A DNA stretch of 33,749 nt from IMG/VR virus record IMGVR_UViG_3300031857_000737, positions 1-33,749 of that record; one strand, 5' to 3'. Made by a program: the position numbers and the translations under genes. The notes below the pieces were generated by a model. The model searched no databases and was not told where the DNA came from. It was given only the letters and a program-made list of their open reading frames with translations. Of this stretch, positions 12,885-23,503 are shown piece after piece (positions within the stretch are counted from its first letter, which is position 1; each line of letters begins with the position of its first letter). The DNA comes from a virus.

Positions 12885-13031
12885 CATGGTTGCGACTCGG
12901 AAGCCTTTCGACATTAGGACGCTGCCTTCGCCATCCTGTTGCGCTGTTTCAATGTCTATCCCGCAGTAGCGCTTTAACGTCTTTGCAGACGCTGCCAGAT
13001 GCTGCCGTTATCCGTTCATCCGACAGCGCCA

Positions 13032-13598: not shown

Positions 13599-13628
13599 TT
13601 GACTCGGACATTAAAAGGTCGGCACAAT
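13599..13628 (+). promoter_or_regulatory. Early promoter P1
   Basis: TTGACT (13599-13604), 18 bp, CACAAT (13623-13628). Downstream are GCATCCCATCG, a small hairpin CGGC/GCCG (13646-13658) and CCTGAAAGGAAACA before ATG 13680. It is the first of seven cassettes of the same design. Confidence 0.8.
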
Positions 13629-13679
13629 GCATCCCATCGAAACAACGGCATCCCGCCGAGTCCTGAAAGGAAACATAGC

Positions 13680-13901
13680 ATGTGCAATCAAGTGGAAGTT
13701 ATCCGCATCGTCTTTCACGAAGTGAAAGGGGATGATGGCAAGTGGACGAAGACGAGCCGTGCGTTTATGAGCAATGCTGACGCAGTGCGTGAGATTGAAA
13801 CGCTGCAAGAGTTTGCAAAGCAAAGGCGCCCATTCATCCGTAAGGTGGTGCCTGAGCCTATGCTGACGGTGCTGTACCCGACACAAAACCCCTTCGCTTG
13901 A
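13680..13901 (+). CDS. Small hypothetical early protein
   Basis: 73 residues, MCNQVEVIRIVFHEVKGDDG then a helical centre (SNADAVREIETLQEFAKQ) and a short strand-rich end. The start is set by the CCTGAAAGGAAACA leader directly upstream; the longer open frame would begin within promoter P1. Its stop codon lies inside the -35 box of the next promoter. As the first early gene it may act on the host, but no motif supports a specific function. Confidence 0.72.
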   Translation: MCNQVEVIRIVFHEVKGDDGKWTKTSRAFMSNADAVREIETLQEFAKQRRPFIRKVVPEPMLTVLYPTQNPFA

Positions 13902-13927
13902 CAGGGTTTTTCGTAAGCCCCGATAAT
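13898..13927 (+). promoter_or_regulatory. Early promoter P2, -35 inside a hairpin loop
   Basis: TTGACA (13898-13903), 18 bp, GATAAT (13922-13927), then the shared GCATCCCATCG. AAAACCC (13885-13891) and GGGTTTT (13904-13910) form a 7-bp stem whose loop contains the -35 box and the upstream gene's stop codon. As RNA the hairpin plus T-run could terminate upstream transcription. Confidence 0.82.
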
Positions 13928-13975
13928 GCATCCCATCGACGGCACAGTGTCATCGTCTTCCTGAAAGGAAACATC

Positions 13976-14620
13976 ATGATCCGTATCAGCGTCACCAGCA
14001 AGCTTGATGGCAATCGCTCATGGAGCTTGCAAGCTCTCGACACTTGCCCCGGTAGCATCTCTGCCGCTGGTGTACTTGTAGATGCATGCTCTGGTTGCTA
14101 TGCAACGACGGGCAACTACCACTATCCCAACGTGAAGGAGCCACGCATTGCCAATCGTGAAGATTGGAAGCGTGATGCATGGGTTGATGACATGGTGGTT
14201 GCATTGGCGAAGGACAAGTTCTTTCGCTGGTTCGACAGTGGCGACATGTATGCTCTCGGCCTTGCCGAGAAAATCTATCAAGTGATGCAGCGTACACCAT
14301 TAACCCGCCATTGGTTGCCTACTCGCATGGCGAAGTTTGCCAAGTTTGCCGACGTCATCCGTAGGATGAAGGCGCTTGACAATGTGTCCGTTCGCTTTAG
14401 CAGCGACAGCATCGATGGTGTGTATGGTGCAGAACATGGCTCTGTCATTGTCCACGATGCTGAGTCTGCCCCTGAAGGTGTGTTTCTGTGCCGTGCTTAC
14501 GAGAACGATGGCAAGTGCAGCGGATGCCGTGCATGCTGGAACAAGGATGTGCCTGTCATTGCCTACCCTGCCCACGGTGCGAAGATGATGAAGGTGATTA
14601 GGTTGAGCGCCGTACACTGA
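13976..14620 (+). CDS. GP88-family cysteine-rich phage protein
   Basis: 214 residues. The N-terminal segment has LDTCPGSISAAGVLVDACSG then CYA (C24, C38, C41), followed by FRWFDSGDMY (83-92) and HWLPTRM (112-118). The C-terminal part has C172 and the cluster CSGCRAC (C181, C184, C187). This order of C-P-G...C-x2-CYA, a W/F-x-SGD motif and a late cysteine cluster matches, as I recall it, the phage GP88 family (named for mycobacteriophage gp88). Biochemical function is unknown; cysteine spacing suggests metal or iron-sulfur binding. It is driven by its own early promoter with leader CCTGAAAGGAAACATC before ATG 13976. Confidence 0.8.
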   Translation: MIRISVTSKLDGNRSWSLQALDTCPGSISAAGVLVDACSGCYATTGNYHYPNVKEPRIANREDWKRDAWVDDMVVALAKDKFFRWFDSGDMYALGLAEKIYQVMQRTPLTRHWLPTRMAKFAKFADVIRRMKALDNVSVRFSSDSIDGVYGAEHGSVIVHDAESAPEGVFLCRAYENDGKCSGCRACWNKDVPVIAYPAHGAKMMKVIRLSAVH

Positions 14621-14628
14621 ACGACGGA

Positions 14629-14650
14629 GGGGCTGTAAGCCCCACGTTTT
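14629..14650 (+). terminator. Probable terminator after GP88-family gene
   Basis: GGGGCT (14629-14634) and AGCCCC (14638-14643) form a perfect 6-bp stem with a 3-base loop, followed by ACGTTTTCG. The T-run is short (four), so termination may be partial. It lies nine bases after the stop codon and just before promoter P3. Confidence 0.55.
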
Positions 14651-14665
14651 CGAAAGACCCTACGT

Positions 14666-14695
14666 TTGACAGGGCTTTTCGAAAGCGTCAATAAT
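14666..14695 (+). promoter_or_regulatory. Early promoter P3 (orphan)
   Basis: TTGACA (14666-14671), 18 bp, AATAAT (14690-14695), preceded by GACCCTACG as in P1. No gene with a ribosome site follows before the next promoter, 148 bases on. Confidence 0.75.
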
Positions 14696-14843
14696 GTAAG
14701 CAATGCAGCACGATGCGAGTCGGTGAGAAGCTAGCCGGGTGATGCCGGGTTCCGACAGACACATCATGCTGAAGTGTGACGGAGCATGTAGGTTACATGT
14801 AACGTTGTGCGAAAGCTGACGGCAGAGTCGAAAGGCCCTGCAG
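14696..14843 (+). ncRNA. Possible small RNA downstream of P3
   Basis: No credible ORF is present: the longest frame is 25 codons without a ribosome site. The stretch can fold: GTCGG (near 14,720) with CCGAC (near 14,753) closing a CCGG-loop-CCGG hairpin, and CATGTA-GGT-TACATG (near 14,789-14,803). No strong terminator is visible at the end. The call rests on a promoter without a gene plus self-complementarity. Confidence 0.35.
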
Positions 14844-14873
14844 TTGACTCGGGAAATGACATCGCCCTACAAT
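14844..14873 (+). promoter_or_regulatory. Early promoter P4 (orphan)
   Basis: TTGACT (14844-14849), 18 bp, TACAAT (14868-14873). The next gene with a ribosome site starts 266 bases downstream, far longer than the leaders of the other cassettes. Confidence 0.7.
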
Positions 14874-15139
14874 GGATGCCTCGGCAAGCCTCGGTTTGCC
14901 ATCGATGCGAAAGCGTCAACGCTCTTTAACAACCCGCTGCTAGTGTCGGTGCATGTGACAGATGCACTATGGACTAGCGTGAATGATGCATACGTCAATG
15001 TGTCATGCACCATCACACATGGTGCTGAAAATGTGTGAGCTTCCCCGAGTGAGAGTGGGTGCTCTTGCGTTAGGGGGTTTTCTTCAGCGTTGCGAGTCAG
15101 CGCTGAACAAAGCAATGGCTTTTCCGAAAGGAAACAAAC
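14874..15139 (+). ncRNA. Long leader or small RNA downstream of P4
   Basis: No ORF with a ribosome site is seen. Short hairpins are possible: GGCAA/TTGCC near 14,882, AGAG-TGGGTG-CTCT near 15,052 and CAGCG/CGCTG near 15,086-15,106. It may be an untranslated leader of the 15140 gene or an independent RNA. The open frame running through 14844-15038 would start inside the -35 box, so it is not called. Confidence 0.3.
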
Positions 15140-15337
15140 ATGTGGAATAAGCAAGGCATGCAAGTGAAGGCAACGTATCACGGCAAGTATGTGTCGGGCG
15201 TTGTCACATCTAGCCGCGTCAAGTATGGCGGCACAGTGCAGCACACCATCTCCCTCAATGCACCTATCATGCTGCGTTGGCGCAGTGAGCCGGTGCATAC
15301 TGTTCTGGTTGACGACGACAACGTTGTCCTTTCCTGA
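15140..15337 (+). CDS. Small beta-rich hypothetical protein
   Basis: 65 residues: VKATYHGKYVSGVVTSSRVK then GGTVQHTISLNAPIMLRW and VHTVLVDDDNV, reading as a small five-strand SH3-like barrel. The leader CCGAAAGGAAACAAAC precedes the ATG. Similar short beta proteins are frequent among early phage genes, function unknown. It is followed 11 bases later by a micro-ORF with the same leader. Confidence 0.68.
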   Translation: MWNKQGMQVKATYHGKYVSGVVTSSRVKYGGTVQHTISLNAPIMLRWRSEPVHTVLVDDDNVVLS

Positions 15338-15348
15338 AAGGAAACATC

Positions 15349-15423
15349 ATGACATACACACTGCTTGTGCTATTCGCTCCCATCATTCTGATGGGCATCG
15401 CCATCATCATCGCTGGAGAATAA
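15349..15423 (+). CDS. 24-residue membrane microprotein
   Basis: MTYTLLVLFAPIILMGIAII plus IAGE: one hydrophobic helix covering nearly the whole product. CCTGAAAGGAAACATC stands directly before the ATG, the same leader used by neighbouring genes, which supports translation. The stop codon is followed within ten bases by promoter P5. Confidence 0.6.
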   Translation: MTYTLLVLFAPIILMGIAIIIAGE

Positions 15424-15431
15424 CCCCACGC

Positions 15432-15461
15432 TTTACTCGGCTTTGATAACGTCGATATAAT
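15432..15461 (+). promoter_or_regulatory. Early promoter P5
   Basis: TTTACT (15432-15437), 18 bp, TATAAT (15456-15461). The spacer CGGCTTT...AACGTCGA is almost the same as in P6. The leader lacks the GCATCCCATCG block and a clear hairpin, and uses CAAAGGACACACC as ribosome site. Confidence 0.83.
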
Positions 15462-15498
15462 TGTCGGCATCACTTCCTCCTCACACAAAGGACACACC

Positions 15499-15717
15499 AT
15501 GTACATGAACGCAATGGTCACAGAATGCGACGTCACTGGTGCCCGTTATGATGCACCAGTTGCGGGTTCATATGCGGTAGCACGTGGTGCTACAGGGCGT
15601 TGGTGTGTAGTGCTTGCCTTCGGCCCAGAGGCAACAAAGCAACATGCTGGTAAGCTGTTGAGCGAAGACGATGTAAGAAACATCGTCGAAGCAAAGGGGG
15701 AATGGCTCGACTATTAA
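15499..15717 (+). CDS. Small hypothetical early protein
   Basis: 72 residues: YMNAMVTECDVTGARYDAPV, GSYAVARGATGRWCVVLAFG, then a helix SEDDVRNIVEAKGEWLDY. It reads as a mixed alpha/beta small domain with no recognised family. It has its own promoter (P5) and an AAAGGA site eight bases before the ATG. Promoter P6 begins eight bases after its stop. Confidence 0.7.
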   Translation: MYMNAMVTECDVTGARYDAPVAGSYAVARGATGRWCVVLAFGPEATKQHAGKLLSEDDVRNIVEAKGEWLDY

Positions 15718-15725
15718 CCCCACGC

Positions 15726-15755
15726 TTTACTCGGCTTTCACAACGTCGATATAAT
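15726..15755 (+). promoter_or_regulatory. Early promoter P6
   Basis: TTTACT (15726-15731), 18 bp, TATAAT (15750-15755), then GCATCCCATCG and a perfect hairpin GCAGC-ACTTC-GCTGC (15767-15781) before CCTGAAAGGACACAAC and GTG 15804. Confidence 0.85.
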
Positions 15756-15803
15756 GCATCCCATCGGCAGCACTTCGCTGCTCTCTTCCTGAAAGGACAC
15801 AAC

Positions 15804-15983
15804 GTGAACGACATCATCTCCGCCATCCGCCGCACCCTGCAACGTAAGCTTGCCCGCTACGTCATCACCGTCTATTGGGAAGGCGACACGTTCAAGCACT
15901 ATACATTCAAGCGTAATGAAATCAGGGAATGGGTTGACGCCTACCCTGCCGACGTTGACACCATCGTCATTGCCCGTTACTAA
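15804..15983 (+). CDS. Small hypothetical early protein (GTG start)
   Basis: 59 residues: a basic helix (NDIISAIRRTLQRKLARYV), then strands (ITVYWEGDTFKHYTFKR) and EIREWVDAYPADVDTIVIARY. The GTG is set by the CCTGAAAGGACACAAC leader; an upstream ATG in frame lies in the previous gene and before the promoter. No family recognised. Confidence 0.68.
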   Translation: MNDIISAIRRTLQRKLARYVITVYWEGDTFKHYTFKRNEIREWVDAYPADVDTIVIARY

Positions 15984-16010
15984 CCCTCCGCTTTCCTGAA
16001 AGGAAACACC

Positions 16011-16418
16011 ATGACATTGTCCGCATCAATCGCAGGTAAAGTATTCGTCTACTTCAATCTGCATCGCAAGTGCCTCAGCATCAAGGCGCTGGAGGGTGAA
16101 TACAAGGGTAAGGTGATAGGCTATGCCGACACGGTGGCGCTGCACAATTGCAAGTTCAAGGTGTCAGAGGCAGGGCGTCAGCGTGTCATCCGTGAGAAGC
16201 GCAAGAATGTGCATGCTGGTGTTGTCGGACACCTCATAAGCCTCAATCCCTGCGGCTATTTCATCGACGCCATCAAGAACATCGGCAGCCCCGTCAAATA
16301 TAACCCATACAAATATACGTCATTCGTTCATGCTGTGAACGAGACACCTGTACATGAGGCACGACACGTTGCCATCATTGCCAGCAATGGCAAGGCTTCC
16401 ATCTTTGCGGAGACTTAA
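16011..16418 (+). CDS. Hypothetical protein (135 aa)
   Basis: 135 residues: KVFVYFNLHRKCLSIKALEG, then a middle with EAGRQRVIREKRKNVHAGVVG and a strand-rich end. The pattern of viewing codes such as VFVYFNLHRKCLSIKA...GHLISL resembles short phage proteins of unknown role. Its leader CCTGAAAGGAAACACC follows the previous stop at once, after TAACCCTCCGCTTT. That sequence looks like a promoter cassette from which the -35 to hairpin part has been deleted, so it is probably co-transcribed from P6. Confidence 0.7.
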   Translation: MTLSASIAGKVFVYFNLHRKCLSIKALEGEYKGKVIGYADTVALHNCKFKVSEAGRQRVIREKRKNVHAGVVGHLISLNPCGYFIDAIKNIGSPVKYNPYKYTSFVHAVNETPVHEARHVAIIASNGKASIFAET

Positions 16419-16420
16419 AC

Positions 16421-16639
16421 ATGCTCTCACATCGTTTCTACCTATCAGGTGGCAGCAACGGCTGGTGCATCAACGACGCAGCAATGGGCATGCCAGTGTG
16501 TGCTGACAAGCGTACACCACAGGCTGCGTTGGAGGTGGCGAAGGAGCTGAAGCTCGACATCTCCCCGCAGATGTGGTGCAGGAACACGCTGCAATGGGTT
16601 GACATCGTTGCCACGCTGTACAAAAGCCCCTCTGCTTGA
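16421..16639 (+). CDS. Small hypothetical protein
   Basis: 72 residues: FYLSGGSNGWCINDAAMGMP then a helix (TPQAALEVAKELKLDISP) and a Trp-containing end. It starts two bases after the preceding stop, so the genes are probably translated together. Its stop TGA is part of the -35 box of promoter P7. No family recognised. Confidence 0.65.
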   Translation: MLSHRFYLSGGSNGWCINDAAMGMPVCADKRTPQAALEVAKELKLDISPQMWCRNTLQWVDIVATLYKSPSA

Positions 16640-16665
16640 CTCAACAAATATCTTTCGCTTACACT
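16636..16665 (+). promoter_or_regulatory. Early promoter P7
   Basis: TTGACT (16636-16641), 18 bp, TACACT (16660-16665). The spacer differs from the other copies, but the box spacing is identical. It is followed by a duplicated hairpin and the leader TCTGAAAGAAACATC before ATG 16735. Confidence 0.7.
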
Positions 16666-16674
16666 TCAATCCGT

Positions 16675-16714
16675 CGCAGCAATGTCGCTGCAACAAACGC
16701 AGCAATGTCGCTGC
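16675..16714 (+). repeat. Tandem duplicated leader hairpin
   Basis: A 17-base unit, CGCAGCAATGTCGCTGC, occurs at 16675-16691 and again at 16698-16714. Each forms a 5-bp stem GCAGC/GCTGC with loop AATGTC. P6 has a single hairpin with the same stem but a different loop. The pair lies in the untranslated leader between P7 and the ribosome site. Confidence 0.8.
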
Positions 16715-16734
16715 CTCCTTCTGAAAGAAACATC

Positions 16735-17589
16735 ATGCGTCAATCCCTCATCTTCTCCCGTCGCACCGACAACGGCATCATGTCTGCAAACGACATCATG
16801 TCCCGTGCTCCTGCCGTGTTCTCTGACACGAAGGCATCACGACTGACCGACCGTTACCAATCTCTGCGTACTAGCGACCTGCTGCCTGTCATGGCAGACT
16901 ACGGCTACTTCCCGACACAGGCTGCACAGAAGCGTGTGACGAAGGCATCGCCGGTTGCTGCCGAGCATAAGACACACATGGTTGCGTTTGCCAAGCATGA
17001 CGACAACGGCAACGGTAATGTGAGAGGCGAGATCATTGTGTACAACAGCCACGACGGCACCTCTGCAGTGCGGTTGTTTGCTGGTGCCTATCGCTTCATC
17101 TGCAGCAACGGCATCGTTGCTGGTGAAGGCATGCAACAGCGCATCCATCACACTGTCAAGTCGCTGGCAAACTTCGAGGAGTCGCTGCGTACCACCGTCA
17201 GCAATCTGCCGATGGTGCTGGCAGCGCTTGAGGCTGCACGTAACATCACCCTCGACGGACAACAGCGCTATGAGCTGGCGAAGCAAGCGGTGATGAAGCG
17301 TTGGGGCTTGTTCGACGACACCATCGTCGACGTTGACGGACGCCCCGTGAAGGGCAGCTATGCCACGACGAAGACCATTGCTGATGCTCTCGGTGTACAG
17401 CGTAGTGAAGACGACTTGTCCGACGCCTTCACTGTGTGGAATCGCATTCAGGAGAATGTGTTGCGTGGCAACGTGATGATCAAGTCCATCACCGACAACA
17501 ACGTCGGCATGCGTAAGGCTCGACCCATCACCGCAGTGGCAGAGCATGTCCGTGTCAACACGGAGTTGTTCGACCTGCTGCCTGCATAA
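16735..17589 (+). CDS. DUF932-like phage protein
   Basis: 284 residues. The centre has VRLFAGAYRFICSNGIVAGE, the mark of DUF932 (also called DUF945 in plasmids and phages): a strand-rich N-terminal half, the R-x-x-CxNG-x segment, and a helical C-terminal half (LANFEESLRTTVSNLPMVLAAL). Members are frequent on mobile elements and are of unknown function. The start is set by the leader after P7; an in-frame ATG 99 bases earlier would put the promoter and hairpins in the coding region. It is the largest gene of the early cassette array. Confidence 0.8.
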   Translation: MRQSLIFSRRTDNGIMSANDIMSRAPAVFSDTKASRLTDRYQSLRTSDLLPVMADYGYFPTQAAQKRVTKASPVAAEHKTHMVAFAKHDDNGNGNVRGEIIVYNSHDGTSAVRLFAGAYRFICSNGIVAGEGMQQRIHHTVKSLANFEESLRTTVSNLPMVLAALEAARNITLDGQQRYELAKQAVMKRWGLFDDTIVDVDGRPVKGSYATTKTIADALGVQRSEDDLSDAFTVWNRIQENVLRGNVMIKSITDNNVGMRKARPITAVAEHVRVNTELFDLLPA

Positions 17590-18429: not shown

Positions 18430-18635
18430 TAAGCGAAGTCGATCTGCGTGATTGGGAACAGCTTGATACAGTGCCGCTGTATTCTGTGCCGCGTAACACC
18501 TACATCAAATTGGGTGACGACTACTTCTTCTTCGATCACATCGATGGCATGTATTCATTCTGTCTCGACATGAATAATATGGTCTATCACATCATGGCAA
18601 CAACCCCTGTCATTCCTCTGAGGAAACCTGCATGA
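18426..18635 (+). CDS. Small hypothetical protein (GTG start)
   Basis: 69 residues beginning at GTG 18426, coupled to the previous stop. The sequence LDTVPLYSVPRNTYIKLGDD then YFFFDHIDGMYSFCLDMNN is typical of a short beta-rich phage protein of unknown function. AAAGGAAAA lies before the GTG. It overlaps the ADP-ribosylglycohydrolase start by four bases. Confidence 0.65.
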   Translation: MISEVDLRDWEQLDTVPLYSVPRNTYIKLGDDYFFFDHIDGMYSFCLDMNNMVYHIMATTPVIPLRKPA

Positions 18636-19459
18636 AACGTGAACAAGTTGTCGGTATGTTCGTCGGCGTATTCCTTGGCGATATGCTGGGTGCGCCATAC
18701 GAGTTTCAAGATGAGATGGACGTTGACGACGTTGTTCTCAAGACAGGCGGCGCTCACAAGGTGTCGTTGGGCGAATACACCGACGACGGAGCGCTGACGT
18801 TAGCTCTTGCAGAGAGCTACATTGCCCGTGGCTGCTTCGATGCACACGATGCCAGCAATCGGTTTAAGCAATGGAAGACCACTGGCAAGTATGGCACACG
18901 TGGCTATGCCTTCGACATTGGACGCACCACTGCAGCAGCCATCGACAGGATGCCTTCTGTTGTGTACGCTGCAGATGGTGGAGACATGGACAGTGGCAAC
19001 GGTAGCATGATGCGTATTGCTGCCTGCATTGCTGCCAACCACAACAACCCAATGAAGGCATTAGCAGATAGTATAGCTGCCAGCCTGATGACGCATGGCA
19101 ACAGCGACATCCTCGCCTATACCACAGCATATGTCGATGAGATATTTAATGGAGCAATGTCGCGATATAAGTCGCTGAAGTCTCATCCAAATAAATATGC
19201 CCATGCCAGAGGCACGGTGATGTATGCATACAACGCTGCTCGACATGCCCTGCATCATGGTGGCAGAGATGGTGGCGCTGTGCTGCGTCATGCCATATCA
19301 TATGGACACGACACCGACACCAACGCTGCCATTGCTGGTGCTTGGGTAGGTGCGAAGTATGGCATCGATTGCTTCCCACAGGAATATATCGATGTGCTGC
19401 AGAATAAGCAACGCATCTTCGATGTGGCAAATAAGTTGTTTGAGATGGGAGAGATGTGA
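18632..19459 (+). CDS. ADP-ribosylglycohydrolase family protein
   Basis: 275 residues, all-helical. Signature motifs are in order: GDMLGAPYEF (16-25), YTDDGALTLALAES (from 49; Asp ligands for one Mg2+), a middle GNGSMMRIA, and HDTDTNAAIAGAWVGAKYG (from 226; Asp ligands for the second Mg2+). The family (DraG/ARH) removes ADP-ribose from proteins or nucleic acids, or hydrolyses related compounds. In a phage it may reverse host ADP-ribosylation, including modification by defence systems, or act in NAD-derived metabolism. Neither target can be read from the sequence. It starts in ATGA overlap with the upstream gene, and the next gene's ATG overlaps its stop. Confidence 0.88.
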   Translation: MKREQVVGMFVGVFLGDMLGAPYEFQDEMDVDDVVLKTGGAHKVSLGEYTDDGALTLALAESYIARGCFDAHDASNRFKQWKTTGKYGTRGYAFDIGRTTAAAIDRMPSVVYAADGGDMDSGNGSMMRIAACIAANHNNPMKALADSIAASLMTHGNSDILAYTTAYVDEIFNGAMSRYKSLKSHPNKYAHARGTVMYAYNAARHALHHGGRDGGAVLRHAISYGHDTDTNAAIAGAWVGAKYGIDCFPQEYIDVLQNKQRIFDVANKLFEMGEM

Positions 19460-22081: not shown

Positions 22082-22395
22082 CCTGCCGCTACCCATATTG
22101 CGATGCTGGAGAAATGGGAGCATTCTGCAAAGATGAATGCCAATCATGTCCACACGGTGTAGACGATGGCAATTGCAAAGAATGCTATGAACAAAACACT
22201 CGCGAAGTATGCAAACATTTCAATCCAGTAGACCAGCCTTGCGACAAATGCAAAGTCGAAAACGCCGCATCCAAAGAACGTCAATTCATCATCAATTTTC
22301 TGGAGAGTATGCATGAGCGCTGTCTTGGAACACACAACTACTACCTCCACGCAGCCCATTGCATCCGCAACCTGCCTTCCACTAAATCTACGTAG
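22078..22395 (+). CDS. Cysteine-rich hypothetical protein
   Basis: 105 residues with twelve cysteines. In order: MTCRYPYCDAGEMGAFCKDE, CQSCPHG, CKECYEQ, VCKHFN, CDKCK and a single later Cys, giving several C-x2-C or C-x4-C pairs for two or more zinc sites. The end is helical (ERQFIINFLESMHERCLG). The last 83 bases overlap the integrase start in another frame. No family recognised. Confidence 0.65.
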   Translation: MTCRYPYCDAGEMGAFCKDECQSCPHGVDDGNCKECYEQNTREVCKHFNPVDQPCDKCKVENAASKERQFIINFLESMHERCLGTHNYYLHAAHCIRNLPSTKST

Positions 22396-23503
22396 ACGCG
22401 CTGCCGATCTCTATTACAACCCAACACAGGGTGTCATCGACGCTGGTGTTGTGAAGAGGAAGTCATTTCCTCTGAGCAAGATTGAAGAAGCATGCAGATA
22501 TGCTGTCGAATGCAATGAGCGCATCGAAGAGTGGCGTAAAGAAACATCACACATTGCAGGCTTACAGAAGGATGGCAAAGTGAAAGACGTTGTCTTTGCC
22601 TATCTGCATAGCATCGACTTCACCCGTCTTGCTGACATTACGAAGACGCAATATAAGTCATCGATTGAAGCGTGGCGTAATGTTCGTGTCGCTGGCATGG
22701 CTCTGCAACATCACAAGCTTTCCAATTTGGAAACGCCGATGATTCAGCGCATGTATGACGAACAAGTGAGGCAGACATCCCCACACATCGCCAACTACAA
22801 CATGACGGTCTATCGCATCGTCCTCAACTACGCAATTAGATGTGGCTATACACGCCACAACCCGTTTGAGAAGGTGAGGAAGAAGGCGACAAAACATCGC
22901 AAGGTGATGTGGGAGCGTGACAACGTTCGTGCCTTCCTAAACGTAGCCTTCAGCCGCTGGCAATGGCGCAACATTGGCATTGTCTTTTACATGATTTACG
23001 AATGGGGACAACGTGTCAGCGACATCCTCAATCTCAAATGGGACAATATTAACTTCGACACCAACACTGTCACCATCACGCAGAGTAAGCGTGGCGCAAC
23101 AGTGAAGTTGCCCATCTCTGAAGGGCTTGCTACAATGCTGAAGCAGCAACAGAAAGACTTCTTCTTGTCTTCCTATGTTGCCCCGCAGATGGTACGTAGG
23201 CAGGGCAAGTGGACACCGTACAGCATTGCCACGTTGAACAATCATGTCATTGACATCATGGCTGAAGCAAGGCTCGACAAGGAATTACAGCTTCGTGATC
23301 TTCGTCGCACTGCCATCACCGAAACCATTGAAAATGGTGGCGACTTGTTGACAGTGATGCAGATGAGTGGACACCAGCATGCTGCGTCAGTGACACCGTA
23401 TTTCGTTCACACCCGGCGAGGCGCTGCCAAGGCTCAAGAGATAAGGCAGTTTCCTCAACATCTCATGCAGCAACCTACGCTGCTACAAAGGAGTGCAAGA
23501 TGA
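22313..23503 (+). CDS. int: Tyrosine recombinase / phage integrase
   Basis: 396 residues. The N-terminal part (about 90-180) resembles a core-binding SAM-like domain. The catalytic domain has WGQR (Arg234), TITQSKRGATVKLP (Lys259), LRDLRRTA (Arg331, with Arg328 where the family often has His), MSGHQ (His354) and TPYF (Tyr363, nine after the His). The enzyme would integrate the phage genome at an attachment site, or resolve multimers. AGAG precedes ATG 22313. No attP core is evident by eye nearby, and no repressor was recognised in the window, so lysogeny is possible but not shown. Confidence 0.9.
   Translation: MSAVLEHTTTTSTQPIASATCLPLNLRRRAADLYYNPTQGVIDAGVVKRKSFPLSKIEEACRYAVECNERIEEWRKETSHIAGLQKDGKVKDVVFAYLHSIDFTRLADITKTQYKSSIEAWRNVRVAGMALQHHKLSNLETPMIQRMYDEQVRQTSPHIANYNMTVYRIVLNYAIRCGYTRHNPFEKVRKKATKHRKVMWERDNVRAFLNVAFSRWQWRNIGIVFYMIYEWGQRVSDILNLKWDNINFDTNTVTITQSKRGATVKLPISEGLATMLKQQQKDFFLSSYVAPQMVRRQGKWTPYSIATLNNHVIDIMAEARLDKELQLRDLRRTAITETIENGGDLLTVMQMSGHQHAASVTPYFVHTRRGAAKAQEIRQFPQHLMQQPTLLQRSAR

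Follow-up and report, generated by a model that had tools for sequence, protein, structure and literature searches.

Repeated promoter-hairpin cassettes in the early region of freshwater HMO-2011-type phages

INTRODUCTION

The early region of a viral genome record, IMG/VR IMGVR_UViG_3300031857_000737, contains seven promoters, several of which belong to a repeated regulatory cassette. We refer to the whole of this linear record (33,749 bp), which is probably a fragment of a larger genome, as “the window”. In its full form, the cassette has three parts: a promoter, a short hairpin close to the predicted 5' end of the transcript (the “5' hairpin”), and a second hairpin that includes the Shine-Dalgarno sequence (the “SD hairpin”). 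We consider it likely that the cassettes are the host-sigma70 early promoters of a freshwater group of HMO-2011-type phages, and that they act as docks at which early genes are swapped. Two of the seven promoters appear to drive structured non-coding RNAs (ncRNAs), and one of these RNAs, a leader with a boxA and a pseudoknot, is the part of the system most likely to be really new. Here, we describe the cassettes, the evidence for their RNA structure and for gene exchange, and their relationship to known systems.

SEVEN PROMOTERS AND THEIR LEADERS

The original prediction described seven near-identical cassettes whose promoters have a constant 18-bp spacer. All seven promoters are present at the predicted positions, and every spacer is exactly 18 bp. 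In order along the + strand, with their -35 and -10 boxes, they are P1 (13599-13628; TTGACT, CACAAT), P2 (13898-13927; TTGACA, GATAAT), P3 (14666-14695; TTGACA, AATAAT), P4 (14844-14873; TTGACT, TACAAT), P5 (15432-15461; TTTACT, TATAAT), P6 (15726-15755; TTTACT, TATAAT), and P7 (16636-16665; TTGACT, TACACT). By the same rule, neither strand of the 33.7 kb has a further promoter with an 18-bp spacer, and dinucleotide shuffles of the 3.3-kb region yield a mean of 0.022 promoters (maximum 2), compared with the seven observed.

The cassettes as wholes are less uniform than “near-identical” implies, with the full layout being limited to P1, P2, and P6. These three share AATGCATCCCATCG, and the predicted stems, CGGC/GCCG, GACG/CGTC, and GCAGC/GCTGC, are all found. 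The predicted motif before the start codon, CCTGAAAGGAAACA, is also found, except that P6 has the variant CCTGAAAGGACACA. The 5' and SD hairpins lie at 13646-13658 (CGGC/GCCG) and 13660-13672 for P1, as judged from alignment and covariation; at 13938-13957 and 13958-13970 for P2, where a covariance model matches with 61 bits; and at 15767-15781 (GCAGC/GCTGC) and 15786-15798 for P6, supported by a covariance-model match and by covariation. P7 is a variant cassette in which the 5' hairpin, GCAGC-AATGTC-GCTGC, is tandemly duplicated (16676-16714) and the SD element is shortened; there is one copy of this hairpin in the related contig L012 and two in L013. P5 is a promoter alone, with no 5' hairpin and a different SD sequence. 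P3 and P4 are followed by conserved structured RNAs, with no start codon with an SD motif behind them.

The SD hairpin is positioned ~5 nt before start codons, either with a promoter (P1, P2, and P6) or without one (15331 and 15993). Some covariance-model matches (15301-15351 and 15956-16013) correspond to an SD hairpin that has no promoter. One such hairpin (15331-15351) precedes a short open reading frame (ORF) at 15349, and a weak match with no promoter of its own (15108-15142) precedes a gene at 15140-15337.

The full cassettes P1 and P2 precede early gene 1 (13680-13901; 73 amino acids, no family) and early gene 2 (13976-14620; 214 amino acids), which a family search assigns to the GP88 family. 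A family search likewise identifies the gene behind P7 (16735-17589) as a member of the DUF932 family, and all nine DUF932 members found behind cassettes, including that of the window, have the promoter at the same place. Promoters and upstream genes are tightly packed: the TGA stop codon of the upstream gene forms part of the -35 TTGAC at P2 (13898-13901, the end of early gene 1) and at P7 (16636-16639). In many relatives, a TAA lies immediately 5' of the cassette's CCCC.

RECURRENCE IN RELATED PHAGES

Relatives of the window, given here as L-numbered loci, are metagenome viral contigs that were collected through protein searches with DUF932, GP88, and L5-gp82-like genes, and through DNA patterns. 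A scan with a relaxed promoter rule gave 75 non-redundant matches, including the window's seven; once four false matches had been removed, 71 non-redundant cassettes remained in the window and the freshwater contigs related to it. Among the 75 matches, before the false ones were dropped, 59 have an 18-bp spacer and 16 have a 17-bp spacer. The proposed invariance of the spacer therefore holds within the window but not across relatives: 18 bp is a strong tendency of the cassette group rather than a rule.

A search of related phages with a covariance model had been suggested as a check on the cassettes. The model built from them finds 95 sites at E<0.1, all within this phage group, and the same run gave no match in nine unrelated phage loci. 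In seven whole records (up to 60 kb), all matches fall within the early region. Neither the cassette DNA nor the P4 DNA has a match in the isolate phage collection.

COVARIATION OF THE TWO HAIRPINS

The original prediction suggested that stems that change in sequence but not in place are under selection for structure. An alignment of 39 leaders bears this out. RNAalifold, run unconstrained, recovers the cores of both hairpins. Across the 11 pairs of the two hairpins, 91.6% of cells are paired, compared with 84.9% in shuffles; seven pairs have changed on both sides, compared with 3.0 in shuffles (1/500 as high). The number of double-changed cells is 33, compared with 5.2 (sd 3.8) in shuffles, none of 500 shuffles being as high, and controls in which the pairing was slid give at most 6.

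The SD hairpin is typically TTCCT-GAA-AGGAA, with compensated forms TTACC-GAA-GGTAA, TTCCC-GAA-GGGAA, and ATCCT-GAA-AGGAT. The swaps include AU for CG at the middle pair (L073/L085), CG for UA at the closing pair, and AU for UA at the outer pair. G-U cells (19) are more frequent than A-C cells (6) in the 5' hairpin, which argues for an RNA helix on this strand rather than a DNA operator.

GENE EXCHANGE AT CASSETTES

Grouping the proteins behind cassettes by BLASTP supports gene shuffling at these sites, in line with the mobility that had been predicted for them. In five contig pairs, 42-bp promoter/start regions are identical while the downstream proteins belong to different families; examples are window P1 and L065:4911, and L014:4025 and L021:5273. 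The P1 region is identical in both L012 and L065, and in L065 it precedes a gene unrelated to that of the window. Proteins of the same family, for their part, can have promoters that are only 36-50% identical. P2 has the look of a recombinant between two cassettes of L012, the window's closest relative: its match to cassette 1 is unbroken through CGTAAGCCCCGATAATGCATCCCATCG, and from CGTCTTCC on it matches cassette 2. L012 has one extra gene, encoding 63 amino acids, between these two cassettes, and this gene is missing from the window. The hybrid and the gene difference together are what would be expected from recombination that adds or removes a single gene.

The gene at 16011 was predicted to retain only the outer parts of a cassette, as if the promoter had been deleted. 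The outer parts are indeed retained and directly joined: in the footprint at 15984-16008 (+ strand), CCCTCCGCTT runs straight into TCCTGAAAGGAAACA. At the junction, CCCTCCGCTT adjoins TCCTGAAAGG in the window, and the L012 form is CCCCTTCGCTTTCCTG. Deletion of the promoter is plausible, given that orthologs of the gene in L013 and L065 have a whole cassette, but the direction of change is unproven. Since most other relatives have an SD hairpin with no promoter at this site, gain of a cassette in L013 and L065 is a possible alternative.

STRUCTURED RNAs BEHIND P3 AND P4

The P3 RNA (14696-14843, + strand, the 3' end being approximate) is retained in eight sequences. Its consensus fold has a predicted energy of -35.6 kcal/mol, and nine pairs have changed on both sides. 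The core, GAGTCGGTGAGAAGCTAGCCGGGTGATGCCGGGTT, is nearly invariant. No tRNA was found in the P3 region. By analogy with a phage RNA discussed below, the P3 RNA perhaps has a put-like function.

The P4 leader (14868-15085) is retained in at least 14 related contigs. It contains a boxA, GCTCTTTAACAA (14921-14932, + strand), which is the sole exact match in the window (0 expected) to the consensus GYTCTTTAANA (PMC5725501) and is found at the same position in all relatives with P4. A boxB-like hairpin, GATGC-GAAA-GCGTC (14904-14917), precedes boxA in the alignment; most relatives with P4 have a hairpin here, with L018 being an exception. The sequence after boxA is AGTGTCGG in the phage, compared with AGTGTGGG in two betaproteobacterial rRNA leaders. 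Between 14940 and 15037 lie a stem, S1 (14940-14943/14974-14977), a hairpin, HP1 (14950-14966), whose GUGACAG loop is invariant, an H-type pseudoknot (14977-15006), and a further hairpin, HP3 (15014-15037). Alignment shows a conserved terminator-like hairpin, CCCC..GGGGG-TTTTCTT (15043-15084), 3' of these elements.

Pairing in the P4 leader was tested by shuffling 3' arms among distinct arm pairs. The resulting p values, which are optimistic because the arms were chosen by eye, are ~0.0003 or less for S1, 0.0005 for HP1, 0.004-0.018 for the second pseudoknot stem, and <0.0001 for HP3; for the first pseudoknot stem, there is too little variation for this test. L022, which played no part in the choice of arms and is 51% identical, retains S1 (CTAG/CTAG), the pseudoknot, and HP3, while HP1 differs. 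The letters of its pseudoknot are wholly different: CCC/GGG and CCTGTACA/TGTACAGG.

When 2.9 million viral contigs were scanned for the P4 RNA by pattern, 17 stretches contained it, and all those inspected belong to this phage group. The one match among 84,980 bacterial and archaeal genomes (L096, a Roseburia metagenome-assembled genome) is taken to be due to chance, being without a full boxA and the flanking structure. Neither the P3 nor the P4 RNA matches an Rfam family at E<=1 (window 14600-15160 and L087), and the P4 boxA RNA was not found in the compared parts of HMO-2011 and CRP-1. In L073, L087, L091, and L092, the P4 leader passes straight into an SD hairpin and an ORF. The leader in these four is longer, and a second block of conserved sequence within it (ATCGGGGTCGGTGC..GTGGCTTTCATAAGC) precedes the first gene; the form in L090 has diverged.

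Judged by its sequence elements, the P4 leader is probably a cis-acting antitermination element of the rRNA type. A broader proposal, which we put forward tentatively, is that it represents a new class of phage antitermination RNA, a mimic of the rRNA leader (with hairpin, boxA, and a boxC-like element) to which a covarying hairpin and an H-type pseudoknot have been added. Such an RNA would rely on host machinery, with no phage N protein, and would let polymerase pass the promoter/terminator cassettes that serve as gene-swapping docks.

THE PHAGE AND ITS HOST

The left arm of the window (- strand) has T7-type portal and terminase genes, and the right arm (+ strand) has genes for DUF932, integrase, primase-helicase, DNA polymerase, exonuclease, ThyX, MazG, and ribonucleotide reductase. 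The portal shares 62-64% identity with those of Puniceispirillum phage HMO-2011 and Roseobacter phage CRP-1, and gene order is similar. By these comparisons, the phage is a podophage of the HMO-2011 type, in a group only distantly like HMO-2011. A T4-like origin of the promoter hexamers can be ruled out, given the T7-type portal that is closest to those of HMO-2011 and the Roseobacter CRP phages. A 60-kb record (L011/G001) is a near-twin of the window, with identical query proteins and model matches at the same coordinates.

In the divergent region between the late and early arms, 12895-13026 (- strand) matches the Rfam Betaproteobacteria-1 RNA (RF02932) with E 1.9e-10, which suggests a betaproteobacterial host. 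This RNA is also present in L016, L019, and L020. Amid the early genes, 18632-19459 encodes an ADP-ribosylglycohydrolase (PF03747), with a possible counter-defence or NAD/ADP-ribose function. The HMO-2011-type phage of the window has an integrase of the tyrosine type (22313-23503), yet no true match to the P4 RNA pattern occurs in the bacterial and archaeal genomes scanned.

PROPOSED FUNCTION AND RIVAL EXPLANATIONS

If the cassettes function as we propose, each would provide a strong host-sigma70 promoter that abuts or overlaps the end of the gene before it. The proteins scanned in the window and its 60-kb near-twin include no phage RNA polymerase, making host RNA polymerase the natural reader of these promoters. 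Transcription would start at an A positioned 8 nt after the -10 box, 3-4 nt before the short hairpin; of 57 leaders, 36 have A at position 8, and CC occupies positions 6-7 in most. Early mRNAs would thus open with a 5'-terminal stem-loop. Having 3-4 nt ahead of a 5' stem is a geometry that hinders 5'-end-dependent decay in Escherichia coli. Work by Emory, Bouvet, and Belasco on 5'-terminal stabilising stem-loops is cited in PMC3997798. Given that spacing, the most likely role of the 5' hairpin, by analogy, is that of a protective cap, shielding short early mRNAs from 5'-end-dependent decay and giving every swapped-in gene equal expression. The SD hairpin would hold the Shine-Dalgarno sequence immediately upstream of the start codon, and would probably equalise or gate translation. 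Homologous recombination within the shared cassette sequence would allow individual genes behind it to be exchanged, gained, or lost. P3 would drive a structured ncRNA and P4 the boxA leader RNA, neither with a gene start behind it, and the P4 leader would make polymerase resistant to terminators, such that it reads on through the cassettes that follow.

Several points weigh against this proposal. Covariation names no function: the same pattern would arise if an RNA-binding protein of phage or host recognized the hairpins. The aligned cassettes are related and partly paralogous, meaning that the shuffle counts, such as 33 double-changed cells against 5.2, overstate the number of independent events. 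The SD hairpin is weak, with a C-A closing pair in six sequences. There is no clear 5' hairpin behind the promoters P5, L014:1647, L019:4696, L020:4039, and L020:5342, indicating that this hairpin is not required. As for the polymerase that reads the promoters, a search with PF00940 was silent everywhere, controls included, and four large late-strand proteins have no family assignment.

The main rival to a protective cap is a binding site: the hairpins would be recognized by a phage or host RNA-binding protein that controls translation of all early genes, much as T4 RegA or a phage coat protein at its operator does. We regard this as unlikely. The SD sequence does lie inside the second hairpin, whose GAA loop is nearly invariant, and the upper part of the 5' hairpin (a C-G closing pair and an A as first loop base) is conserved above a variable lower stem. 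However, no candidate protein has been identified, the loop of the 5' hairpin differs in both length and sequence (AUCCC, AAUGUC, ACUUC), and the hairpin is missing from several early genes. Another rival is that of DNA operators, with a phage repressor binding the inverted repeats of the spacer and of the stretch that follows the -10 box, as suggested for a repeat family of cluster K mycobacteriophages (see below); we regard it as very improbable. The -35/-10 spacers of 17-18 bp often hold an inverted repeat of their own (GGGG..CCCC, CGGGA..TCCCG, CGGGAATTATTTATCCCG), and spacer arms covary to some extent between positions 4-6 and positions 13-15 and 14-16 (0/5000 shuffles as high). Nevertheless, the arm sequences vary among cassettes, where an operator would be expected to be conserved, and inverted repeats in DNA do not predict the preference for G-U over A-C pairs in the 5' hairpin.

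The cassettes could instead be mainly insulators, with the -35 box in the loop of the upstream gene's intrinsic terminator, like the “composite promoter-terminator” form of the promoter-early stem-loops (PeSLs) of T4-type phages; an embedded terminator is the other half of the PeSL design to which the original prediction likened the cassettes. In several cassettes, the -35 box does occupy the loop between paired arms, for example CGAAAGACCC..GGGCTTTTCG and others of the CGAAAGCCCCtacagTTGACAGGGGTTTTCG type, with energies down to -17.5 kcal/mol. The -35 box of P3 lies in a terminator-like stem-loop (-13.1 kcal/mol, z -3.4), and that of P2 lies between the arms of the inverted repeat AAAACCC..GGGTTTTT; moreover, CCC before the -35 box and GG after it are conserved. 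Yet the mean z across 67 distinct promoter regions is -0.68, with z < -2 in just 13, and a stable stem around the -35 box is absent from most cassettes, P1, P5, P6, and P7 among them. The U tracts are short, and a generic terminator scan of the region shows no excess (5 versus 4.1). No covariation was seen that would have tied the upstream CCC to the GGG behind the -35 box and so proved a terminator. Some cassettes therefore include a terminator (clearly P3, weakly P2), but not all do, and we think it somewhat unlikely that insulation is their main role. A separate rival concerns P4, whose abundant early boxA transcript might act in trans as a decoy, titrating NusB-S10 and depressing host rRNA synthesis. 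The perfect boxA, the resemblance of the sequence after it to a host-type leader, and the conserved terminator-like hairpin that closes the leader in one sub-group would all suit a decoy. We nonetheless judge it quite unlikely, because early genes follow the leader immediately on the same strand and, in the four relatives named above, it runs directly into an SD hairpin and ORF.

COMPARISON WITH KNOWN SYSTEMS

The cassettes most readily call to mind PeSLs (Arbiol 2010; Comeau 2014), here as PMC4503421 and PMC5931544 describe them. In both systems, an early promoter of host type recurs with a neighbouring stem-loop among the small genes of a variable region, and recombination at these repeats shuffles gene modules. 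There are also clear differences from PeSLs as described there. PeSLs are found in T4-like myoviruses, whereas the phage of the window is an HMO-2011-type podophage with a T7-type portal. In the cassettes, the main stem-loop is in the 5' leader, covaries, and is joined by a fixed SD hairpin; two copies drive ncRNAs; and a clear terminator is limited to the minority of cassettes noted above. The predicted resemblance to PeSLs in an unrelated phage thus stands as a good analogy, but not as membership of the T4 PeSL family.

In cluster K mycobacteriophages, start-associated sequences (SAS) are repeated at the ribosome-binding sites of many non-structural genes; about half have an additional upstream inverted repeat, the extended SAS (ESAS), and some genes have the start element alone (PMC3203893). 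The likeness lies in a repeat close to the start codon (3-7 bp away for SAS; ~5 nt for the SD hairpin) with an optional inverted repeat upstream. According to their authors, the arms of ESAS do not support RNA pairing (PMC3203893), whereas here the arms covary as RNA, and promoter hexamers are evident. The 13-bp SAS consensus, GGGATAGGAGCCC, is absent, with 0 matches at <=2 mismatches. A promoter-like box and an inverted repeat also precede most genes of one arm of the haloarchaeal virus HGTV-1, a motif that its authors compared to PeSLs (PMC3950731). That promoter is of the archaeal TATA type; the two systems are set apart by description, and no sequence relation is expected.

For P4, the closest parallels are the rRNA leader (boxB-boxA-boxC) and the BoxA of the suhB leader (PMC5725501). 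They resemble P4 in its exact boxA and, more tentatively, in the hairpin before it, which L018 lacks, and in the similar, boxC-like sequence that follows. P4 adds a covarying hairpin, a pseudoknot, and a third hairpin that are not seen in the two rRNA leaders compared, and it precedes phage genes. The put RNA of phage HK022 is a two-stem structure that binds the beta' zinc-binding domain (PMC9378689). As with P3 and P4, structured leaders lie downstream of phage early promoters, two per genome, with antitermination shown in HK022 and expected here. By description, put consists of two stem-loops and requires no dedicated protein factors, while P4 combines a boxA with a pseudoknot. The 5'-terminal stabilising stem-loops of ompA and papA (references in PMC3997798) differ from the present case in that the 5' hairpin is repeated before many unrelated phage genes, where its protective effect is predicted.

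The boxA-pseudoknot leader is a concrete candidate for how long early operons might be expressed in phages with no recognised antitermination protein. In freshwater phages that are otherwise unannotated, the cassettes mark accessory early genes, likely candidates for host takeover or counter-defence. The conserved part of the cassette can be read as RNA structure, making the long-open role of start-associated repeats directly testable. Judged from sequence, the cassettes work like PeSLs and SAS/ESAS, but they lack defining features of each and are not counted as members of either. Following T4 PeSLs and SAS/ESAS, they would add another case, apparently an independent one, of a repeated regulatory kit that serves as a dock for exchangeable early genes.

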